Below, piece after piece: positions 1,186-21,691 of a stretch of DNA of 64,000 nt. A program made the position numbers and the translations under genes. The stretch is taken from positions 1 to 64,000 of the forward strand of contig NZ_SBIS02000013.1 of assembly GCF_004765815.2 (NCBI RefSeq). Reading direction: 5' to 3'. The notes beneath the pieces are model-generated. The model did no database searches and was not told the DNA's origin. It was given only the letters and a program-made list of their open reading frames with translations. The first letter of the stretch is position 1, and each line of letters starts with the position of its first letter. The DNA is from Halorussus salinus (GTDB lineage Archaea > Halobacteriota > Halobacteria > Halobacteriales > Haladaptataceae).

Positions 1186-1463
1186 GTGACGTGCAACTCT
1201 CACGACGTGCGGTTTTGCTGTAACCGCAGTTCGCCTACCGTTGTATCCTTACCTAGCAAGTCGAACCACAGCGATTCCTGTCCGGGTGAATGCGGAGTGG
1301 AATCCAAAAATTCGTGCCGCGTCCGGTTGCGGAGCCTGCCAGACGAAGTCGAGTTCGCGCTCCTCAGCGTACCCGAATATTGGATTCCAGATCAAGAATT
1401 TCTAAAGCTCGTGGGAGTTGTGCGCTTTCCATGAATCGGCTAAGTTGCTCGAGCTTTGGGGGC
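1186..1463. other. Intergenic stretch, nothing recognised
   Basis: Short open frames exist on both strands but none resembles a protein I know, and none has a convincing start. It may be the decayed N-terminal part of the tnpB remnant next to it. The periodic repeats start at its right edge. Confidence 0.4.
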
Positions 1464-2143
1464 TGTGCGATTCGCACGATTCGTAGGAGCTGTAGGATTC
1501 GTTCAGTTGTTTGATATCGCGTGGAAGTCTACGACGTTCCCGAATTGTACGAGTTCCCCGAGGTCTACGAACTATAAGATTCGTACGATTCGCAGGAAAT
1601 GCAAGAATCCTATTGGAATCATATTTACGACAAACCTTACGGGTTTCACGAATCGCAGACGCCGCTAAGACCGTACGAACTGTGCAACTCGTACAGTCCG
1701 TACGGTCTTTAAGAGCCGTGTAAGCGCTATTCCTGGCAGAGGGAGATTCCAATTCACATGAATCGTGTCGTTCCATCGATGTATACGATTCGTGCGATTC
1801 TCACAGTTCGTGCGAGATCGCGGCGGGGCCCATCTGAGTGTCAGGTCTCTAAAGAAAACATGTGCTGTCTCAGGCCTGAACGAGCGAGTATTGCGATTCG
1901 TATACTTCGTGTGGTGTATGGAATTCGCACGAAGTATACAAATCGTTAAGCTCGTGCGAACTTCGCGAAATGTTTTTATCGGCTCCATGAGTGGGTCCGA
2001 CTGTGCTACCAACGAAGTGTGGGCGTCGCACGACTCGAACGAACCCCCCGATTTGTACCGGTCGCGAAGTTCGCACGAATCGTGCGGGTTGGAGAGTTCA
2101 CACGAACTGTCTGAGTCCAAGAGTTCGCGCACTTCGAATAGAG
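1464..2143. repeat. Degenerate 9-bp tandem repeat array upstream of parA (consensus CGTACGATT)
   Basis: Blocks of 9-bp units run through this stretch: for example 1464-1508 (TGTGCGATT CGCACGATT ...), 1573-1608 (TATAAGATT CGTACGATT ...), 1663-1725 (CGTACGAAC TGTGCAACT CGTACAGTC CGTACGGTC ...), 1782-1817 (TATACGATT CGTGCGATT ...) and 2054-2134 (CGCGAAGTT CGCACGAAT CGTGCGGGT ...). The cores CGTACG and CGCACG are near-palindromes. Several blocks keep the same 9-bp phase over 100 bp. The period removes stops, so frames are open on both strands, but they are not genes. Lying just before parA, the array is a candidate centromere (parS-like) or replication site; that role is inferred. Confidence 0.75.
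1894..1945. repeat. 18-bp inverted repeat inside the parA upstream array
   Basis: 1894-1911 (CGATTCGTATACTTCGTG) is the reverse complement of 1928-1945 at 17 of 18 positions, with a 16-bp spacer. It is the longest dyad in the array and sits about 215 bp before the parA start. It could be a binding site for the small partner protein, an origin element, or a cruciform. Confidence 0.7.
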
Positions 2144-2157
2144 GGATACAACTATCA

Positions 2158-3111
2158 ATGAGTCAACCTGAACCACGCGCTGTCTGCTTCCCGATGTTGA
2201 AAGGCGGCTTCGGAAAGAGCATCTTCGCAAACACCCTTGGAGGAGTCCTCGGTGACCGGCGCGACCACAACGTACTCGTCGTCGACCTTGACCCCGCCGG
2301 TCACCTCTCGACAGGCCTCGGCTATTACACACGCGAAGACGAAACAGCAACCGATCTCGACGATGTCCTTCTCGATGAGACTCCACCCGAAGACATCATC
2401 AAACACCCCGGCTACGGATTCGATTTCCTGCCGTCATTGAATCTCGAAACCGTAACCGAGAACCTCGCTCGTGACTCCGTACTCGCATCGGACATGAAAC
2501 TCAAACAGGAGCTCGTCGAACCCCTCCTCGGTGACACGTATGACTACATCCTCTTCGACATCCCCGGAAGCCGCAACAAACTCGTGAACAACGCTGTTGT
2601 CGCCGCTCCGAACGCCATTCTTCCGTTAAAGCCAGTGCCCGAAGCGCTGAACGGACTCCGAGAAACCGCAAAAAAACTAATCGGAGAAATCCGAGATGCC
2701 ATCGACTTCGAACTCCTCGCCGTCGTGCCAAACGACTTACAGCGCCGAATCGACCAACAGACAAAAGACCGACGCTTACTGGAAGCGATGAACACCCAAG
2801 AGCAGTTTGCAGCCTACCTACTCGCCGGTCGTGGCGCAGACCCCGATGCAGGAACCCTCCCCGACGGCGTGACGATTGAGGACGTGCTTGACGACCATAT
2901 CCCGCCGTTCGCTCGTCTCACAGAAGACGACTGGAAAGCAATTGACAACGGGGAGCGTGACCCGCCGAAAGTCCCGATTCGCCACGCTGGATCGTTCGGT
3001 GACGCCTACGAAGCGCGGAAACCAGTGACCGCCTACGACCCCGACTGCAGCCAGATACAGCCATTTGAATCACTTGCCGATATCGTCGAACAGGGAGGCA
3101 TCCAGCAATGA
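2158..3111 (+). CDS. parA: ParA-family partition ATPase
   Basis: ParA/Soj-type P-loop ATPase for plasmid or chromosome partition, 317 residues, normal for the family. The deviant Walker A motif KGGFGKS spans residues 15-21, with the signature lysine at 15. Motif A' VVDLDPAGHLS follows at 41-51, and Walker B is YILFDIPGSR near residue 120. The frame stays open upstream to 1765, but only through the period-9 repeats, so I take the ATG at 2158, where the conserved protein begins. The stop overlaps the next start by four bases (ATGA), so the two are co-translated. The repeats around it are the likely centromere of this system. Confidence 0.9.
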   Translation: MSQPEPRAVCFPMLKGGFGKSIFANTLGGVLGDRRDHNVLVVDLDPAGHLSTGLGYYTREDETATDLDDVLLDETPPEDIIKHPGYGFDFLPSLNLETVTENLARDSVLASDMKLKQELVEPLLGDTYDYILFDIPGSRNKLVNNAVVAAPNAILPLKPVPEALNGLRETAKKLIGEIRDAIDFELLAVVPNDLQRRIDQQTKDRRLLEAMNTQEQFAAYLLAGRGADPDAGTLPDGVTIEDVLDDHIPPFARLTEDDWKAIDNGERDPPKVPIRHAGSFGDAYEARKPVTAYDPDCSQIQPFESLADIVEQGGIQQ

Positions 3112-3527
3112 CGGGATTTGACCTCGGACAAGAGGCCGACAATGAAGCCACAGACGAGACCACACGCGAGCCAGCCGAGACAACTGACACGGACTCAGCG
3201 GCCAGTATAGACCACGACGCGGACGAAAACGCAGGTGACGAGGAGCACTCCGAAAAGGACCCTCGTAAGACCCCCGCATTCGAATTCGGAGACAACCTCC
3301 GTGAAAGCTTCTACGTCCGTGAGGAAACGATGGAAGCGTTCGAGGACGCGAAAGACTTGGACGCGACACGACTACTCCGTGAACACGGAGTGCGGAAAGT
3401 CCCGACCCGAGAAGTCCATGACGCTGCCGTCCGACTCGCCGCTGACAATCCTGAGAAACTCGCCGAGTACATTCTCAACGAACGCGGTATTGACGTAGAC
3501 GAGACAGAAGACTCAGAAACAATATAG
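3108..3527 (+). CDS. Probable ParA partner, small acidic DNA-binding candidate
   Basis: A 139-residue protein starting inside the parA stop codon. Residues 1-50 are very acidic and low in complexity; residues 55-130 look folded and helical (FEFGDNLRESFYVREETMEAF ... VRKVPTREVHDAAVRLAADN). No ParB nuclease motif, clear HTH or ribbon-helix-helix pattern is visible. Position and overlap with parA argue for a centromere-binding partner, as in plasmid partition operons where a small unrelated protein plays the ParB part. A second repeat array starts 92 bases beyond its stop. Confidence 0.7.
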   Translation: MTGFDLGQEADNEATDETTREPAETTDTDSAASIDHDADENAGDEEHSEKDPRKTPAFEFGDNLRESFYVREETMEAFEDAKDLDATRLLREHGVRKVPTREVHDAAVRLAADNPEKLAEYILNERGIDVDETEDSETI

Positions 3528-3619
3528 GGTTGATTGCGAAGACCTAATCTCGGTGCATATCGATTTTCCGCATCAGAATCTTTGATATTGACTAAGTTAG
3601 CGTGTGGACTATAGCGGTC

Positions 3620-3691
3620 CGTGCAATTCGTACGATTCGCTCGATTTGTAGAGTTCGTAAGATTCGTACGACTCGTACGATTCGGATGGAT
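3620..3691. repeat. Eight tandem 9-bp units downstream of the par genes
   Basis: Contiguous units from 3620: CGTGCAATT, CGTACGATT, CGCTCGATT, TGTAGAGTT, CGTAAGATT, CGTACGACT, CGTACGATT, CGGATGGAT. This is the cleanest block of the family and gives the consensus CGTACGATT. It lies in an AT-rich gap of about 350 bp with no other gene. Confidence 0.85.
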
Positions 3692-3878
3692 ACTCTTGTT
3701 CCTGGATTTTCTCAGAGACGACAAGATATTAGACCCGAACTGCTTCGGTTGGTCCCCAGATTACTTCGATTCTAATATCGAAATATAAACCCGTTACAGT
3801 GCATTAAGAAGATTAGCCGTCATAGATCAAATCGACTAATTTAAGTTTCTTGTTTTGCCAGGTCACATTGACCGTCCG

Positions 3879-4466
3879 ATGCGTAACCATACAGAAGGCG
3901 ATACTGGCGATAAAAATGTGCTCGTTCATGTTCCTCCGCTTGACGATAAAGGAGATGCCGCCACTCTCGGATTTCTAACGCAAACGCCACCTAGAGAAAC
4001 AAACGTTCTCGTCATTTCTTATATCAGATCGGCAGACGAGTGGTTACGCACATGGCTTGATTATGCTGGCGAGTCGCCAGCTCACCTCGGCATCATTCGA
4101 GTTGGGGAAACCACTCGGTCGGCGACCACAGCTAGCGCGTCTGATTCGCCGTCACATTCGCCGAGTGTTATTGAGACCGTAGCGAATCCCCGCAACTTGA
4201 CTGATCTCGGTATCACGATTAGCGAATATATCTCAGATTGGGATGAGAATCCGTATCAAACGTGTGTTTGCTTTGATTCGTTGACTGCTCTCCTCCAATA
4301 CACCGAGAATGTACAAACAGCATTTCGTTTTCTGCATACCGTCGTTGGACGCGTCAAAACGGCAAATGCCCGTGCCTGCTATCAGATAACTCCGGATGCA
4401 CACGACGACCAAACAGTGGCTCTCATCACCGGTCTATTTGATACTGTTCTTGAGCACAAAGGTTGA
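3879..4466 (+). CDS. RecA/KaiC-like haloarchaeal protein (DUF7504-like), possibly truncated
   Basis: A 195-residue protein, taking the ATG at 3879; a TTG at 3855 would add eight residues. It matches, from memory, the haloarchaeal DUF7504 type: a KaiC/RecA-like fold without a clear Walker A, seen as NVLVISYIRSADEWL, the stretch LTDLGITISEYISDW and the strand TCVCFDSLTALLQY, followed by FRFLHTVVGRV. Such proteins are often found near HalX regulators, and one follows here. The stop TGA lies inside GTTGACATCCTCC, which looks like an IS200/IS605 end, so the native C-terminus may have been cut. Function unknown; a signalling role is inferred from context. Confidence 0.65.
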   Translation: MRNHTEGDTGDKNVLVHVPPLDDKGDAATLGFLTQTPPRETNVLVISYIRSADEWLRTWLDYAGESPAHLGIIRVGETTRSATTASASDSPSHSPSVIETVANPRNLTDLGITISEYISDWDENPYQTCVCFDSLTALLQYTENVQTAFRFLHTVVGRVKTANARACYQITPDAHDDQTVALITGLFDTVLEHKG

Positions 4467-4491
4467 CATCCTCCACACGACTCAAGTCGTG
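4462..4491. mobile_element. Solo IS200/IS605-type end
   Basis: GTTGACATCCTCC is followed by the dyad CACGACT/AGTCGTG (4476-4482 and 4485-4491). This is the inverted form of the right-end pattern seen beside the TnpB genes here. No matching transposase follows, so it is a lone end or a small deletion remnant. It supplies the stop codon of the preceding gene. Confidence 0.6.
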
Positions 4492-4571
4492 GGGAGAGTC
4501 ACTAGAACGGAGTCTGTTTGATACAAAGTTATATTAGAGGCTATTTCATTAAATCAGAATAAGTATAGAAA

Positions 4572-5138
4572 ATGGAAGAATCGTCTTCAATCACGATCTT
4601 AGTGGTCGATGACAACCGGGATTTAGCCGATCTCTATAGCGAATGGCTTACCCCAACCTACGACGTCTATACTGCTTACGATGGCGAAGACGCACTCAAC
4701 CGTCTCGATGAGACCGTCGACATTGTCCTCCTTGACCGTCGAATGCCCAGACTATCGGGTAAGGATATTCTTACAAAAATCCAGAACCGGGGACTCGAAT
4801 GTCAGGTAGCGCTCGTGACCAGTATTGAACCAGATTTTGATATTCTTGATCTTGGCTTTGATGACTACCTCGAGAAACCCACTACCGAAACGACCCTCCA
4901 CAGCCTCGTTGAGTCACTCCTTGCGCGTACACGATATAGTGACCAAATACAGGAATATGCAGCCCTCATATCGAAGCAAGCAACGCTTCAAGCAGCGAAG
5001 GAATCCGAAGAACTCGCCGACAATCCCGACTTCGAGTGCTTACAAAAGCAAATTAACGAGTTACAAAACGAAGTCCAACTCCTCATCAAGGATTTCACAG
5101 CTCAGGATTTTATCGCAGCTTTTCGCCATATTGACTGA
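4572..5138 (+). CDS. HalX-type response regulator
   Basis: A 188-residue cytoplasmic response regulator. The receiver domain covers residues 7-120: acidic pair D13-D14, phospho-acceptor D55 in VLLDRRMP, the conserved Thr/Ser position in ALVTS, and the Lys of YLEKP. The C-terminal part (about 130-188) is helical and fits the HalX domain (LARTRYSDQIQEY ... LQKQINELQNEV), common in haloarchaeal regulators. HalX output is not well understood. No kinase is adjacent; the sensor kinase at 10.4-11.8 kb is the nearest. Confidence 0.85.
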   Translation: MEESSSITILVVDDNRDLADLYSEWLTPTYDVYTAYDGEDALNRLDETVDIVLLDRRMPRLSGKDILTKIQNRGLECQVALVTSIEPDFDILDLGFDDYLEKPTTETTLHSLVESLLARTRYSDQIQEYAALISKQATLQAAKESEELADNPDFECLQKQINELQNEVQLLIKDFTAQDFIAAFRHID

Positions 5139-5293
5139 ATATCATCTCTATTCCAGCTGAAATTGATTTCCTGTGTTTCTATCCGAATGTTATTCGTTCC
5201 GATTGTTGAGGAACTAGTTGTAATCGGAGAAAGTGCGCATTCGCTAGGTGTCTGTTCACAAAGACCACTTTCGCCTAGCACGAAATAGATATA

Positions 5294-5485
5294 ATGAATA
5301 TCGTATTGGTCTTAATCATGATATTGTCCGAGCTTATCTCATGGTGGGGAAACAACACTCAGGCCGACACACTAACCTACAAATGTACATCATGTGGAGC
5401 ACGCTTTGAACTTCAGCGGCAGGCCTGTCCGGAGTGTAGCGGATACAGCATTGAACGATGCTCATGGGAAGACATTCCCGATTAA
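5294..5485 (+). CDS. Small zinc-ribbon protein with hydrophobic N-terminus
   Basis: A 63-residue protein. Residues 1-18 (MNIVLVLIMILSELISWW) are hydrophobic and could be a membrane anchor, although translation might instead begin internally. Residues 29-55 form a zinc ribbon with CTSCG and CPEC pairs and a further Cys at about 55. Small zinc-ribbon proteins are frequent in haloarchaea and are mostly of unknown function. It is flanked by AT-rich DNA with no operon partner. Confidence 0.6.
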   Translation: MNIVLVLIMILSELISWWGNNTQADTLTYKCTSCGARFELQRQACPECSGYSIERCSWEDIPD

Positions 5486-5569
5486 GCTCTCCACTGTCCT
5501 CAAACCGATATTTTAAAATATATATATTATGTATCTGACTTCCACTCTACCTAACATGCTTTATCGATG

Positions 5570-5605
5570 CTCGAGATTCGTACAATTCGCGCGAATCGCA
5601 CGGAC
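5570..5605. repeat. Third block of the 9-bp repeat family
   Basis: Units CTCGAGATT, CGTACAATT, CGCGCGAAT and CGCACGGAC run from 5570 to 5605. They belong to the family around parA although they lie more than 2 kb beyond the par genes, so the family spreads over about 4 kb. Confidence 0.65.
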
Positions 5606-5639
5606 TGGAAAATCCTACAAGTCGGAGATCCCTATGGGG

Positions 5640-5935
5640 AAAGTTAGTGACCCACGACTGCCGTCGTGGGCTTGCTGATCGACTCGCCGTCGGCGTCGAA
5701 TCGACGGAGGCGGTGTAGTCGCCGATTAGTGAAGTTCTCTCAGAGAGGCCCTTTACCTTGGACGGAGTAAGTGGGCCGAGAGAAATCCCGCGTCTCTCGC
5801 CAGCGAAGTATTCAGTTCGCGTGGTCCCTACAGGGATACGCGTGCGTGAATGTCAATATTTTACCCTGGTACCCAGACGTTCACCCAGTTCATGAAAAGC
5901 GATGTCTCTGTCCCGGTGTGATATCCTCCTCCTGG
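5640..5935. mobile_element. Probable decayed IS200/IS605-derived fragment
   Basis: It begins with GTGACCCACGACTGCCGTCGTGGGC, whose arms CCCACGAC and GTCGTGGG form a hairpin, and closes near GTGTGATATCCTCCTCC, which resembles the right-end pattern. No intact frame lies between. It looks like a small non-coding relic (MITE-like), but the ends are degenerate. Confidence 0.4.
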
Positions 5936-5992: not shown

Positions 5993-6565
5993 CTACTCCA
6001 ACAAATCAAGCAACTGGGTAACGTATGGACTGTTCTCCCAACTGCGATGCGAGCTAATTGCAGTAATGACTGTCCGTGCGTTCTCGGGGGTCATGTGTCC
6101 ATCGCGAGCGTAGTCACAGATGAGTCGAGGTGTTGGCACGATGCGAGGTCCCTGTAGCGAGGCATGGACGAGTGCGAAATTGGTGCCGCCGAACTCGTCA
6201 GTTAGGAATCCGTCGACCGTAAGTGCGTTTGCAAGAACGATACCGTCGGTTTCACCGTCGTCAAGTCCAAACGTCGGCCGCGAGTCTGGTGTTTCTGCTC
6301 GCTGATACGGATCCTCGACGGTATAGTGGTCACGTGCGGCGAGGACGTTACTGGCTGCTGCGCCGTGGATGTCCTGATACTGCGCAATATCACGGAGTTC
6401 GGTGACGACTTCTGGTGGGGCGAAGACGTCACAAGATGTGAGAAGATACTGAAGCGGGTCGGGGTTAGCATCGGTGTCGTAGTCAGTATCGGCACGAGGA
6501 ACAGCGAGACTTACGAGCGCGCTCGTGTCAGCAACGACGGTTCGGAGCTGTGTCCTACTGCTCAT
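5993..6565 (-). CDS. PIN-domain protein, likely toxin
   Basis: A 190-residue PIN-like ribonuclease candidate. Acidic residues in the expected order are D13 (VVADTSALV), a Glu in PPEVVTELRD (near residue 58), an acidic cluster DDGETDGIV (near 103) and the Asp of LTDEFGG (near 120). Its ATG overlaps the stop of the upstream ribbon-helix-helix-like gene (ATGA), the usual antitoxin-toxin order. The toxin role is inferred from fold and pairing; some haloarchaeal PIN-like proteins of this length may act differently. Confidence 0.75.
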   Translation of the reverse strand: MSSRTQLRTVVADTSALVSLAVPRADTDYDTDANPDPLQYLLTSCDVFAPPEVVTELRDIAQYQDIHGAAASNVLAARDHYTVEDPYQRAETPDSRPTFGLDDGETDGIVLANALTVDGFLTDEFGGTNFALVHASLQGPRIVPTPRLICDYARDGHMTPENARTVITAISSHRSWENSPYVTQLLDLLE

Positions 6566-6942
6566 CGTTCGTCAACGTCGTCGGCTGGATCCGCGGCAGA
6601 GGCCGTCGTGGCATCCCCATCGTAGATGTCGGTGTCTTCGGGCGGGGCGAGGTCGAGCGGTTCGCTTTCGAGATCAGCTTTAAGGAGTCGAAGCCGTTGG
6701 GCGGTTTCAGCTCCGACTAGTTGCTTCACGGTTTCGAACTCCAGTTGGTCGTCGTAGTACTTCGTCGCGACCAACTCTTGGAATGTCTCGCTTTCGGCAG
6801 TGTCTTCGATGTACTCTCGGATGGCGTCGACGAGGAGGTCCGTTCGGTCTTTGTCGAAGAGGTCCGCAATGGCATCGAGGCGGTCGACGAGGTATTCTGG
6901 GGATTTGAAGTGGACTCGTCGCGGGTCGTCACTTGCGCTCAT
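6562..6942 (-). CDS. Ribbon-helix-helix-like antitoxin
   Basis: A 126-residue protein from the ATG at 6942. Residues 8-48 fit a ribbon-helix-helix DNA-binding region: a short strand RRVHFKSP, then helices YLVDRLDAIADLF and RTDLLVDAIREYIED. The C-terminal part is acidic and probably binds the toxin. The frame is open to 7005, but that stretch contains the TGTGTGCA dyad and a TATA-like sequence, so the shorter start is better. It overlaps the PIN gene by four bases. Autoregulation through the dyad is likely. Confidence 0.75.
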   Translation of the reverse strand: MSASDDPRRVHFKSPEYLVDRLDAIADLFDKDRTDLLVDAIREYIEDTAESETFQELVATKYYDDQLEFETVKQLVGAETAQRLRLLKADLESEPLDLAPPEDTDIYDGDATTASAADPADDVDER

Positions 6943-6944
6943 CT

Positions 6945-7006
6945 TGTGTGCATGTTTTGCACACAGACTGATAATCGTTTTGCCTGATGCACACAGTTTG
7001 CACACG
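6945..7006 (-). promoter_or_regulatory. Operator candidates of the RHH/PIN pair
   Basis: TGTGTGCA (6945-6952) and TGCACACA (6958-6965) form a perfect 8-bp dyad with a 5-bp spacer, directly before the antitoxin ATG. Further upstream TGCACACA (6988-6995) and TGCACACG (6999-7006) form a direct repeat. A TATA-like GATTATCA on the minus strand lies between them (about 6968-6976). The sites bracket the promoter, as expected for a self-repressing antitoxin. Confidence 0.7.
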
Positions 7007-7269: not shown

Positions 7270-8790
7270 TTGACATCCTCCTCCGCGTGAACGCGGAGGA
7301 ATCCCAACCGCGTTTAGGATATTAGGGTTTGCAGTCCACCACTTGTTCCTGCGGTTGGAATCCGCTGGACAAGTCATGAAGGTAGACTGATGGCTGTGCC
7401 AACCAGCCGGTACTCCTATCGTTGTCCAAATCGGACGCAGACTCGGAGTTACTTTCGCCGTTGATGTTGAGACGGATGTTCTCTGCCCCATTCACGTCAG
7501 CGTTGAACGCATCGTCGTGCGCCTCACAGACGTAGAGACCACGTTCGACACGCTGACTATCGTCTTCCCTACCGCACACGCAACACGTCTTGCTCGTGTC
7601 GCGCTCAGACACCTCTACGACTTCGATTCCCTCGACTTTCGCCTTGTATTCGAGGATGTTGGTGAACCGGTCGAACGCCCACCCATGTAGGTCGAGGTTC
7701 CCGTGTTTACCCCAGTTCTTCGACTCTCCGTTCTCGTCTTCGCGGACGCCAGCGAGTTTCCCAACGTTGATGCGACCAACTTCTTGCTCTCCACACCGCT
7801 CAACGATGTGTTTCGCTAAGGAGTGGAAGAAGTGCGTGCGACGCTCTGACCACTTTGCGTGGAGACGAGTGGCTCGCTCACCACCTGAGTCGTCACACTT
7901 GGCGATTTCTTTCGGGAAGTAGTAGCCATCCTGTTTCAGGCGGTTGCCGGGGTACAGATCGGCTTGTTCAGTGCTGTACGCGACCGCCGCGAAGCTGCAG
8001 ATGCCGAGGTCGATACCCGCCGTTTCGTTGCCGGGTGCGTTGGGCGTCTCGATTTCGTATTTGCAGACGAGATGGAGTTCCCACCGCCCCTTCGACTGGT
8101 CATAGACCGCTCTGACCTGTTGTAGGTTCTCAATCGAGACACCGGGACGAGTTTCGTATTCGACAAGGATGTACTCCCATGCTTTCGGGTGTTCCTTGTG
8201 ATTCGCGCCTTTAGACAGGCGAACACGGTTGTTCTTCGAGTCGTGTTTGATGCCGTTTTGCTTCCACGTCACCGTACTGCGAGGGTGTTCTTCGTGGACG
8301 CGGTTTCCATCGTCGTCGTAGTAGTTTTTCTTGCGGTAGCCGGGCGGATTCGCTCGACTATCAGACTTCCTCTTGCCGTACCACGAGTTGAAGGCTTCAG
8401 CGAGTTCCTCCAGAACGCGCTGACTGGACTGACTATGCAGTCCCTTGTACTTTGAATGACCTTTCAACTCGCCTTTGAGGTCGCCGTGGTCAGGGATTTC
8501 GCCCGTTTCCTCCCACACTTGGCGGGAGTGGTAGTTTGCAACGTTCCAGAGTTTGCTGGCACTCCACCCGTGCCGGTCGAGCGAGTCCTCTACTTGTCCG
8601 TGGTTGAGGATTTTCGCTCGGTGGGTGCGGTGGACTTCCAGCATTCTGAACGTCTGTATAATCACTTATACTCACGTCTCTTGTAAAGGCATGGGTTGAG
8701 GACAGTGGAATATCCAGCCCTGCCATCGACTGTGGATTGTTGAAGAGTTGTCGGATTCATCCCGCGCCTAAAGGCGCGGGTATTCTCCTT
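7270..8790 (-). mobile_element. IS1341-type element (tnpB only)
   Basis: The single tnpB gene on the minus strand is bounded by hairpin ends. The right end, on the low-coordinate side, is TTGACATCCTCCTCC with stem CCTCCGCG/CGCGGAGG (7280-7287 and 7292-7299). The left end is the perfect stem CCCGCGCC/GGCGCGGG (8761-8768 and 8773-8780). Exact borders are estimated. No tnpA is present, so movement would need one supplied in trans. Confidence 0.75.
7322..8644 (-). CDS. tnpB: TnpB-family protein, atypical RuvC Glu position
   Basis: TnpB of 440 residues from the ATG at 8644; an ATG at 8665 would add seven, but the TATA-like stretch TGATTATAC overlaps it. RuvC-I is GIDLGICS (Asp 212), the zinc ribbon is CCVCGRED ... 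YVCEAH, and RuvC-III is FNADVNGAENI (Asp 383). Where other TnpBs have (V/I)E(D/Q)L, this one reads INVGKLAG, so Gly 295 stands at the catalytic Glu position. The family is clear; whether the protein cuts DNA is uncertain. An omega RNA would be expected from the 3' end of the gene toward 7270. Confidence 0.85.
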   Translation of the reverse strand: MLEVHRTHRAKILNHGQVEDSLDRHGWSASKLWNVANYHSRQVWEETGEIPDHGDLKGELKGHSKYKGLHSQSSQRVLEELAEAFNSWYGKRKSDSRANPPGYRKKNYYDDDGNRVHEEHPRSTVTWKQNGIKHDSKNNRVRLSKGANHKEHPKAWEYILVEYETRPGVSIENLQQVRAVYDQSKGRWELHLVCKYEIETPNAPGNETAGIDLGICSFAAVAYSTEQADLYPGNRLKQDGYYFPKEIAKCDDSGGERATRLHAKWSERRTHFFHSLAKHIVERCGEQEVGRINVGKLAGVREDENGESKNWGKHGNLDLHGWAFDRFTNILEYKAKVEGIEVVEVSERDTSKTCCVCGREDDSQRVERGLYVCEAHDDAFNADVNGAENIRLNINGESNSESASDLDNDRSTGWLAQPSVYLHDLSSGFQPQEQVVDCKP

Positions 8791-17225: not shown

Positions 17226-17325
17226 ACAATATACAAAGTTGATCCTTAATGCGCTTCTATAACCTCCATGTTAACTACTATCGATAGTAAAAGTTATAAT
17301 TTCTACATTATTAAATTGTGATAAG

Positions 17326-17997
17326 ATGTCGGCTCCGACACCTACTACCGACACAGAACTCCTGACGACGGCGGAACACACCGACCCTGAAATCGCGCCC
17401 GCACCGACAACCAATCCGGCCTATCACGACTCGACTTGGCTTCGCTATCACTATCTCGTCGCGCAACAATCAAGCCGCGAGCTCGGTCGTGTCTGCGGCG
17501 TCAGCCATAAAACAATCCTCAACTGGCTCGACAAACACGATATTGCACGCCGCCCCGCTAACCCAACTGGTGATAAGAGGTATCTCAACGCGGACTGGCT
17601 TGAACGCGCGTACACGGACCGCGGCCACACCGAACGTGAAATCGCCGAAATGTGCGGCGTCCACCGTTCAACTATCAATACCTGGTTACAGAAACACGAT
17701 ATCGAGGTGGATCATGGCCACGGCGTTAGTTGTTACTGGACATCCCAAGGCTATCAACGTGTTCAAATCGGCGACACATCTCTCAACCTGCATACTCTCG
17801 TCGCTCTTGCAAATGGCGCAGACCCTTACAAACTGTTTAACAGCGGCTACGTTGTCCACCACAAAAACGGGATGAAGGCCGAGAATACGCCCGAAAACCT
17901 TGAACTCCAGCGTCGTGACGATCATACTCGCAATCATCACCAGAACGGTGATCTTCGGACTCCCGCCGACTGCTTCGCAACTAAAGACGGTAGTTAG
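17326..17997 (+). CDS. HNH endonuclease with two helix-turn-helix repeats
   Basis: A 223-residue protein. Two similar HTH units lie at residues 48-72 (SSRELGRVCGVSHKTILNWLDKH) and 100-126 (HTEREIAEMCGVHRSTINTWLQKH), followed by an HNH-type nuclease at about 155-205 (LNLHTLVALANG, VVHHKNGMKAENTPENLEL). This resembles free-standing HNH homing endonucleases and phage HNH proteins. The upstream 100 bases are AT-rich with a TATA-like TTATAAT. It sits between a TnpB element and a DNA methyltransferase, so it may be mobile or part of a defence block. Confidence 0.8.
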   Translation: MSAPTPTTDTELLTTAEHTDPEIAPAPTTNPAYHDSTWLRYHYLVAQQSSRELGRVCGVSHKTILNWLDKHDIARRPANPTGDKRYLNADWLERAYTDRGHTEREIAEMCGVHRSTINTWLQKHDIEVDHGHGVSCYWTSQGYQRVQIGDTSLNLHTLVALANGADPYKLFNSGYVVHHKNGMKAENTPENLELQRRDDHTRNHHQNGDLRTPADCFATKDGS

Positions 17998-21031: not shown

Positions 21032-21691
21032 CTATTCTGCCGGAGCTGAATATGAGATAATTGACCGACCTCCGGCTTGTTGATAGAGGAGATTCGTTCC
21101 AACGAGCGTCAATACGGCAGCGAATCCGAACCCAATAAGCGCCCAACCGACCATTGTCAGAACTCCGAGAACGAGAAGGGACGCGAGTACGAGATCAAGG
21201 AGGATGGTGTACCGGAGGTTTTGTACCGCAAGCACCACCCCGTCACGGACTCCCGTTCTAAGCGATTCAGCCGCGTCAGTGACGACGACGATATACGGGA
21301 GTGCACAGAGCCCAATGAGAGCGGCTGTCAACGACAGGAGGGCAACTAAGCGGACGAGGAATGGGACTGTTCCAGTCAGCATCAAAAGGTTGCCGCCGAC
21401 AAGCCCGACAAGTAACCAAATAAGTGCCGAAAGACCGGCTCCCTGCACCAAATGCGTGCGAACGCCGTCGATGAAAAGCCCGACAGTTTGGCGTGCCGTA
21501 TGCGGTGAGCCTCGTGCGAGAATGACCCGCATTGCGTGAACGACTCCGAGGAGAGCAAACCCGATTGTAACGAGTGGGAGCAGGGCAAGAGTGCCAACGA
21601 ACGAGAGGGTGAGGGCTGCAATAGCGTTGTGAAACGCGGCGTTGATGCTTCGGCGAAGCGGTGTTTCGAGTGCAGCTGCCGGGAGCGCCAT
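21032..21691 (-). CDS. DUF624/YesL-like membrane protein
   Basis: A 219-residue integral membrane protein with about five hydrophobic segments (for example IAALTLSFVGTLALLPLVTI, SALIWLLVGLVGGNLL, LLDLVLASLLVLGVL). The pattern fits the YesL/DUF624 family, commonly coded beside sugar ABC importers. It is the last gene of a minus-strand run and starts five bases after the stop of the Gfo/Idh/MocA gene. I chose the ATG at 21691; the longer frame to 21793 overlaps that gene. Its role in sugar uptake is inferred from neighbours. Confidence 0.65.
   Translation of the reverse strand: MALPAAALETPLRRSINAAFHNAIAALTLSFVGTLALLPLVTIGFALLGVVHAMRVILARGSPHTARQTVGLFIDGVRTHLVQGAGLSALIWLLVGLVGGNLLMLTGTVPFLVRLVALLSLTAALIGLCALPYIVVVTDAAESLRTGVRDGVVLAVQNLRYTILLDLVLASLLVLGVLTMVGWALIGFGFAAVLTLVGTNLLYQQAGGRSIISYSAPAE

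Follow-up and report, generated by a model that had tools for sequence, protein, structure and literature searches.

Tandem 9-bp repeats around a haloarchaeal parA locus: a probable centromere of a type Ib-like partition system

Introduction

A 2016 review names the Sulfolobus SegAB system and that of pNOB8 as the dedicated archaeal partition machines described (PMC5120986). SegB of the Sulfolobales, a ribbon-helix-helix (RHH) protein, reads discrete 13-base-pair (bp) palindromes (TCTAGASTCTAGA) scattered over the chromosome (PMC12284271). The AspA-ParB-ParA system of pNOB8 uses three proteins, with winged-helix AspA, a single 23-bp palindrome as nucleation site and spreading of the small DNA binder along DNA (PMC5120986). 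In pSM19035, parS consists of contiguous 7-bp WATCACW repeats (heptads) served by the RHH ParB omega; at least four contiguous repeats are needed for this ParB to activate ParA, and a plasmid has several arrays, some of them overlapping par promoters (PMC9499535). Here, arrays of 9-bp repeats are described that surround a parA gene of the haloarchaeon Halorussus salinus, in a window of 64,000 nucleotides (NCBI RefSeq assembly GCF_004765815.2, contig NZ_SBIS02000013.1, positions 1 to 64,000). They very likely serve as parS, the centromere, and as operator in a type Ib-like ParABS partition system of haloarchaea, which also comprises parA and the small partner gene that follows it.

Repeat arrays on the Halorussus salinus replicon

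The window is the beginning of the 205,188-bp contig C8, one of the 11 contigs of a 4.75-Mb genome. The initial annotation reported blocks of 9-bp units before parA, after its partner gene and further on, and these blocks are real. Their autocorrelation, given as z-scores against shuffled sequence, peaks at lags 9, 18, 27 and 36 in the upstream block at 1464–2134 (z 7.1, 6.7, 8.0 and 6.2), at 3600–3700 (6.4, 5.6, 4.7 and 4.8) and at 5565–5615 (3.8, 3.3, 3.0 and 1.4). The remaining lags in the same blocks lie mostly around or under zero, and lag 9 is not raised in the region 1–1400 (z 0.3).

Each repeat unit consists of the palindrome TCGTACGA, 8 bp long, and one additional base, which gives an array two alternating dyads. 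The doubled unit TTCGTACGATTCGTACGA, with up to three mismatches, matches 11 times in the window against 0.08 expected, always inside 1471–5594. Genome-wide there are 23 such matches, 17 of them on C8. When the whole replicon was scanned with a model of three units, arrays appeared nowhere but at the par locus and, outside the window, at C8:148230-148301, in one partial copy of the locus (the copied segment of Table 1). The repeats are thus not common far from parA, a possibility that would have spoken against a centromere. The copy of this segment, 145 kb distant from the original, holds a whole array, the fourth on C8.

Some of the 28 units scored in the main array are weak. They form four main register blocks (about 1409–1507, 1545–1706, 1790–1960 and 2008–2106), the best-scoring units lying at 1472, 1581, 1790, 1925, 1952 and 2071, and 22 of the 27 gaps between successive units are multiples of 9. 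The register is thus kept even where the upstream units are degenerate, which a continuous coat of protein would predict.

Table 1. Features of the par locus in the window and of its copy
Feature	Position	Strand	Description
Main array, proposed centromere and operator	1409..2106		28 scored TCGTACGAN-like 9-bp units 5' of parA
parA	2158..3111	+	Walker-type ParA ATPase, 317 amino acids; Pfam AAA_31 2.2e-19; PDB ParA/Soj relatives
Partner gene	3108..3527	+	ParB-like, 139 amino acids; overlaps parA by ATGA (3108-3111)
Copied segment	3523..3687	+	Partner stop codon through array; 165 bp, 96% identity at C8:148134-148298
Second array	3619..3690		Exactly 8 contiguous 9-bp units, 3' of partner gene
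Third array	5569..5604		4 contiguous 9-bp units; adjoins IS200/IS605-type end

Conservation of the 9-bp step

The survey covered 115 loci with the partner gene, most of them with parA found upstream, and in 107 loci the 600 bp 5' of parA were scored for their strongest period in the range of 5 to 15 bp. This period is 9 bp in 105 of the 107 loci, with z > 4 in 94; since some loci are close relatives, the total of 107 overstates their independence. In control tiles of the same loci, period 9 is best in 142 of 637, and the others give mainly other codon-length multiples. The 9-bp signal is strongest less than 300 bp from the parA start. The centromere suggested by the initial annotation is therefore supported both by the 9-bp peak and by its recurrence in homologous loci, about 100 of which maintain the order parA-partner. 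The register also holds between non-adjacent units: among 432 gaps, 180 are multiples of 9 where chance would give 48, and a lesser excess is seen at the half-unit offsets 4–5.

The step is constant across loci and the word is variable. Thus the search of other haloarchaeal parA loci proposed earlier shows conservation of the step, but not of the unit CGTACGATT itself. Most loci share a common plan, in which half-sites flank a central TA and, with one further base, recur every 9 bp. The word of the window, TCGTACGAN, is also that of Haladaptatus; AGSTASCTN is found in Halorussus vallis and Haloarcula, TTNTANAAN in Haloferax and others, a NAGTAGANA-like word in pNRC200 of Halobacterium salinarum NRC-1, and mixed words in the Natrialbaceae.

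The Halorussus vallis plasmid NZ_CP100004.1 (loci L219-L221) carries arrays of its own word in several intergenic regions and not only before parA. Its arrays are located at 17288–17413, 21533–21586, 68577–69054 and 83448–83492, with two more, a duplicated pair, at 119767 and 124012. Both copies of a large direct repeat are among the places that bear them.

In two Haladaptatus loci (L030 1658–1850 and L171 4001–4200), the run of 9-bp units continues inside the partner gene and there codes for a portion of the partner's disordered linker (GAATCGTACGACTCGTACGAA = ESYDSYE), so that an array lies within the gene of its own putative binder. The 9-bp array is missing upstream of 4090 in Haloarcula pelagica (L038), whose ParA is without the usual N-terminal Walker motif and which has a transposase gene upstream; this copy looks disrupted. 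A census of TATA boxes 5' of parA was too sparse to place the promoter relative to the array.

ParA and its small partner

The organization of the locus is that of type Ib systems: a short Walker-type ParA without an N-terminal helix-turn-helix (HTH) extension, a small partner directly downstream in the operon, and repeats 5' of parA. The Walker A motif of the window ParA is KGGFGKS near residue 15. One clade of related ParAs (L076-L092 and similar loci) has KGGFAKT in place of KGGxGKT.

In the partner, a conserved FDxL (FDDL-like) motif at the N-terminus is joined by an acidic linker to a C-terminal domain that is likewise conserved and has a predicted strand at residues 65–71. Residues 65 and 67 alternate with the hydrophobic residues 68 and 70 and precede an invariant Tyr69 and a near-invariant Arg71. 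This pattern resembles that expected of an RHH strand, and the sequence pattern fits strand-helix-helix. No match to the partner was found in the Pfam and NCBIfam family libraries, which includes the absence of a Pfam ParB domain such as defines the ParB/Spo0J proteins. PDB profile searches matched no chain, including any solved omega or SegB chain at E <= 10, and the comparison with PHROGs gave a chance-level match only. Membership of the partner in the omega family, from which the repeat unit differs as well, in SegB or in the CTPase ParBs is not demonstrated.

Relatives of the partner are present in 198 of the 392 haloarchaeal genomes sampled and on 96 plasmid records, haloarchaeal in every case where named; they are absent from the viral contigs and phages searched. 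Orphan partner genes with no adjacent parA occur at L027 5944–6315 and L028 5970–6249. Near the orphan of Halorussus aquaticus no 9-bp array was found, and for that of Haloferax mediterranei the strongest 9-bp stretch lies ~3.3 kb downstream.

In the haloviruses PhiCh1 (L187 2240–2638) and PhiH1 (L188 2243–2644), parA is followed by small genes of another family, that of PhiCh1 having a clear RHH-like stretch (VNMYLPEDLVEELQ). The linker-coding regions of these genes also show a 9-bp periodicity, possibly from mere tripeptide repeats.

Array word and partner residues 65 and 67

The array word follows residues 65 and 67 of the partner rather than ParA. Ser67 goes with T at word position h1, and Ala, Gln or Pro67 with A; among Ser67 partners, Arg65 goes with C at position h2, and Ala or Pro65 with T. 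Partner pairs that share Gln65 and Ala67 have similar words (similarity 0.92–0.96) at 38–44% ParA and 28–42% partner identity, as in L029 and L167 (ParA 43%, partner 42%, word similarity 0.96). With the remainder of the partner and ParA controlled for, word and strand residues show a partial correlation of 0.36, where permutations reach at most 0.11; the partial correlation between word similarity and ParA similarity is 0.235.

Columns of ParA associate with the word as strongly as those of the partner, so that descent confounds any argument from column association alone. Reliance is therefore placed on loci where the histories of the two proteins differ. The window and L030 share the same word with partners 61% identical and ParAs only 39% identical, L135 and L156 have ParAs 72–73% identical to that of the window and yet different words, and the words of L030 and L036 differ at 70% ParA identity. 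That the word tracks the partner and not ParA offers independent support for a DNA-binding role of the partner, which the initial annotation had deduced from position only.

A second parA family with a 13-bp step

The same genome contains two further parA loci, on contigs C7 near 6729 and C9 near 113640 (L183 and L185), with a 13-bp array upstream and a small partner of a different, unrelated family. This second partner family, to which L189-L218 also belong, is present in 87 of 145 genomes. Among 27 of its loci, the best period is 13 in 25, and the 9-bp signal was not found in these 27. The 9-bp step is thus not general to haloarchaeal parA promoters but a property of the partner family.

The chances are about even that these loci represent a class of polymeric centromeres of haloarchaeal plasmids, in which the partner family fixes the step (9 or 13 bp) and the β-strand residues 65 and 67 fix the word. 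If this is true, step and word would form an identity code that keeps apart the segregation of several plasmids with related ParAs in the same cell, and the protein sequence of the partner would allow the word to be predicted.

Proposed mechanism and alternative explanations

It is hypothesized that dimers of the small partner bind successive 9-bp units, where a paired β-strand, probably of the RHH type, would read the half-site–TA–half-site word, and that the bound dimers would cover every array while keeping to a single register. Arrays covered in this way would be the partition complex, in which the conserved FDDL-like tail of the partner may engage nucleoid-bound ParA-ATP and stimulate its ATPase activity, and this stimulation would move and space the plasmid copies. 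Since the main array occupies the sequence ahead of parA, binding to it probably also represses the parA operon. The coat, partition and repression are proposed by analogy with pSM19035, an analogy of mechanism and not of family membership.

Several results weigh against this proposal. No RHH family was matched by the partner sequence in Pfam, NCBIfam or the PDB profiles. AlphaFold models of the whole partner and of its C-terminal domain, built from alignments of seven and eight sequences, are of low confidence and show no strand, and a fold search with the model of that domain returned one meaningless match. As regards the word, the equal association of ParA columns belongs here too. In a tree-based sign test (independent contrasts), about 3 of 4 supported pairs were concordant and none discordant, too few for significance, and in the large Gln65/Pro67 group the words are degenerate and the code is poorly resolved.

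The main array lies directly 5' of parA in nearly all loci, which would also suit an operator that serves only the autoregulation of the parA operon, with the partner as repressor and segregation depending on another site or on none. This is unlikely, since the arrays at 3619–3690, 5569–5604 and C8:148230 are placed where regulation of parA is impossible, the Halorussus plasmid has arrays in four other intergenic places, of which two are in a duplicated segment, and 28 units are long for an operator; moreover, operator and centromere roles coincide in known type Ib systems. The arrays might instead be replication-origin iterons for Orc1/Cdc6 or another Rep protein, as orc1/cdc6 genes are found within about 5 kb of L026, L030, L032, L033 and L037. 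However, the annotated stretches surrounding the array-bearing L025, L029, L031, L034, L035 and L036 include no orc1/cdc6, and step and word go with the partner of parA, which makes a role as iterons very improbable.

Reading of the array by ParA itself, as ParAs with an N-terminal HTH do at par operators, would account for the correlation of word with ParA similarity and for the many ParA columns associated with the word. The window ParA is without such a DNA-binding extension, though, word and partner stay paired despite differing ParAs (window and L030), and alike ParAs have unlike words (the window against L135 and L156, L030 against L036), so that this explanation is given very little credence. 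As a step of 9 is divisible by 3 and open reading frames on both strands overlap the region, the periodicity could also be a coding artefact of tripeptide repeats, or simple-sequence drift. Coding periodicity was rejected, because the upstream block shows no rise at lags 3, 6, 12 and 15 and the sister system steps by 13 bp; in addition, the register shifts from block to block and the step is kept across unlike words, so that an artefact is hardly conceivable.

Other features of the window

On the minus strand at 5993–7005 lies a gene pair resembling, by its sequence and one very weak Pfam match, a PIN-type toxin and an RHH-like antitoxin. Two TnpB-like genes (IS200/IS605, IS1341-type) are located at 1–721 and 7322–8665, and hairpin-like element ends near 730–780, 4465–4500 and 5640–5670.

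Significance

In full-text searches, neither centromeres of haloarchaeal plasmids nor such arrays were found described, which is weak evidence as many subscription papers and all bioRxiv preprints are outside their coverage. The initial annotation had called the 9-bp step unusual, but short-step partition arrays have a precedent in the 7-bp repeats of pSM19035 (PMC9499535). What appears to be new is a polymeric parS of short step that goes with a new protein family and whose step and word change with the partner. About half of the sampled haloarchaeal genomes, pNRC200 included, thereby gain a defined site, a candidate binder and an apparent protein-DNA code, and plasmid segregation and incompatibility become directly testable in a polyploid archaeal group. 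The 9- and 13-bp steps provide a natural experiment in the formation of ParB-like coats on DNA.

Comparison with known systems

MetJ dimers, which are of the RHH type, bind cooperatively to met boxes, tandem 8-bp palindromes; MetJ is a transcriptional repressor and works with no ParA. In geometry, its boxes come closest to the present arrays of 8-bp palindromes spaced by 9 bp, the MetJ step being 8 bp.

Similarly to SegAB, the locus encodes an archaeal ParA-type ATPase and, downstream of it, a small archaea-specific partner, with the sites upstream of the operon. Unlike the sites of SegB, these form tandem arrays; no SegB chain was matched and the words differ from TCTAGASTCTAGA. With pNOB8 it would share archaeal plasmid partition and a small DNA binder that spreads along DNA, but not the third protein, the winged-helix AspA or the single palindrome.

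The 13-bp-step haloarchaeal loci have the same composition of parA, a small acidic partner and an upstream tandem array, and occur in the same genomes, whereas their partner family, step and words are all different.

As in the delta/omega/parS system of pSM19035, a ParA and a small partner are combined with contiguous short repeats as the (here proposed) centromere and with several arrays per plasmid. The differences concern the step (9 and not 7 bp), the words, which are palindromic or mixed and vary between plasmids as opposed to one non-palindromic WATCACW, and the partner, which has no detectable homology to omega. The four contiguous units required in pSM19035 are matched here by runs of eight and four, in three window arrays plus the copy, and the several intergenic arrays of the H. 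vallis plasmid match the several parS sites of pSM19035.

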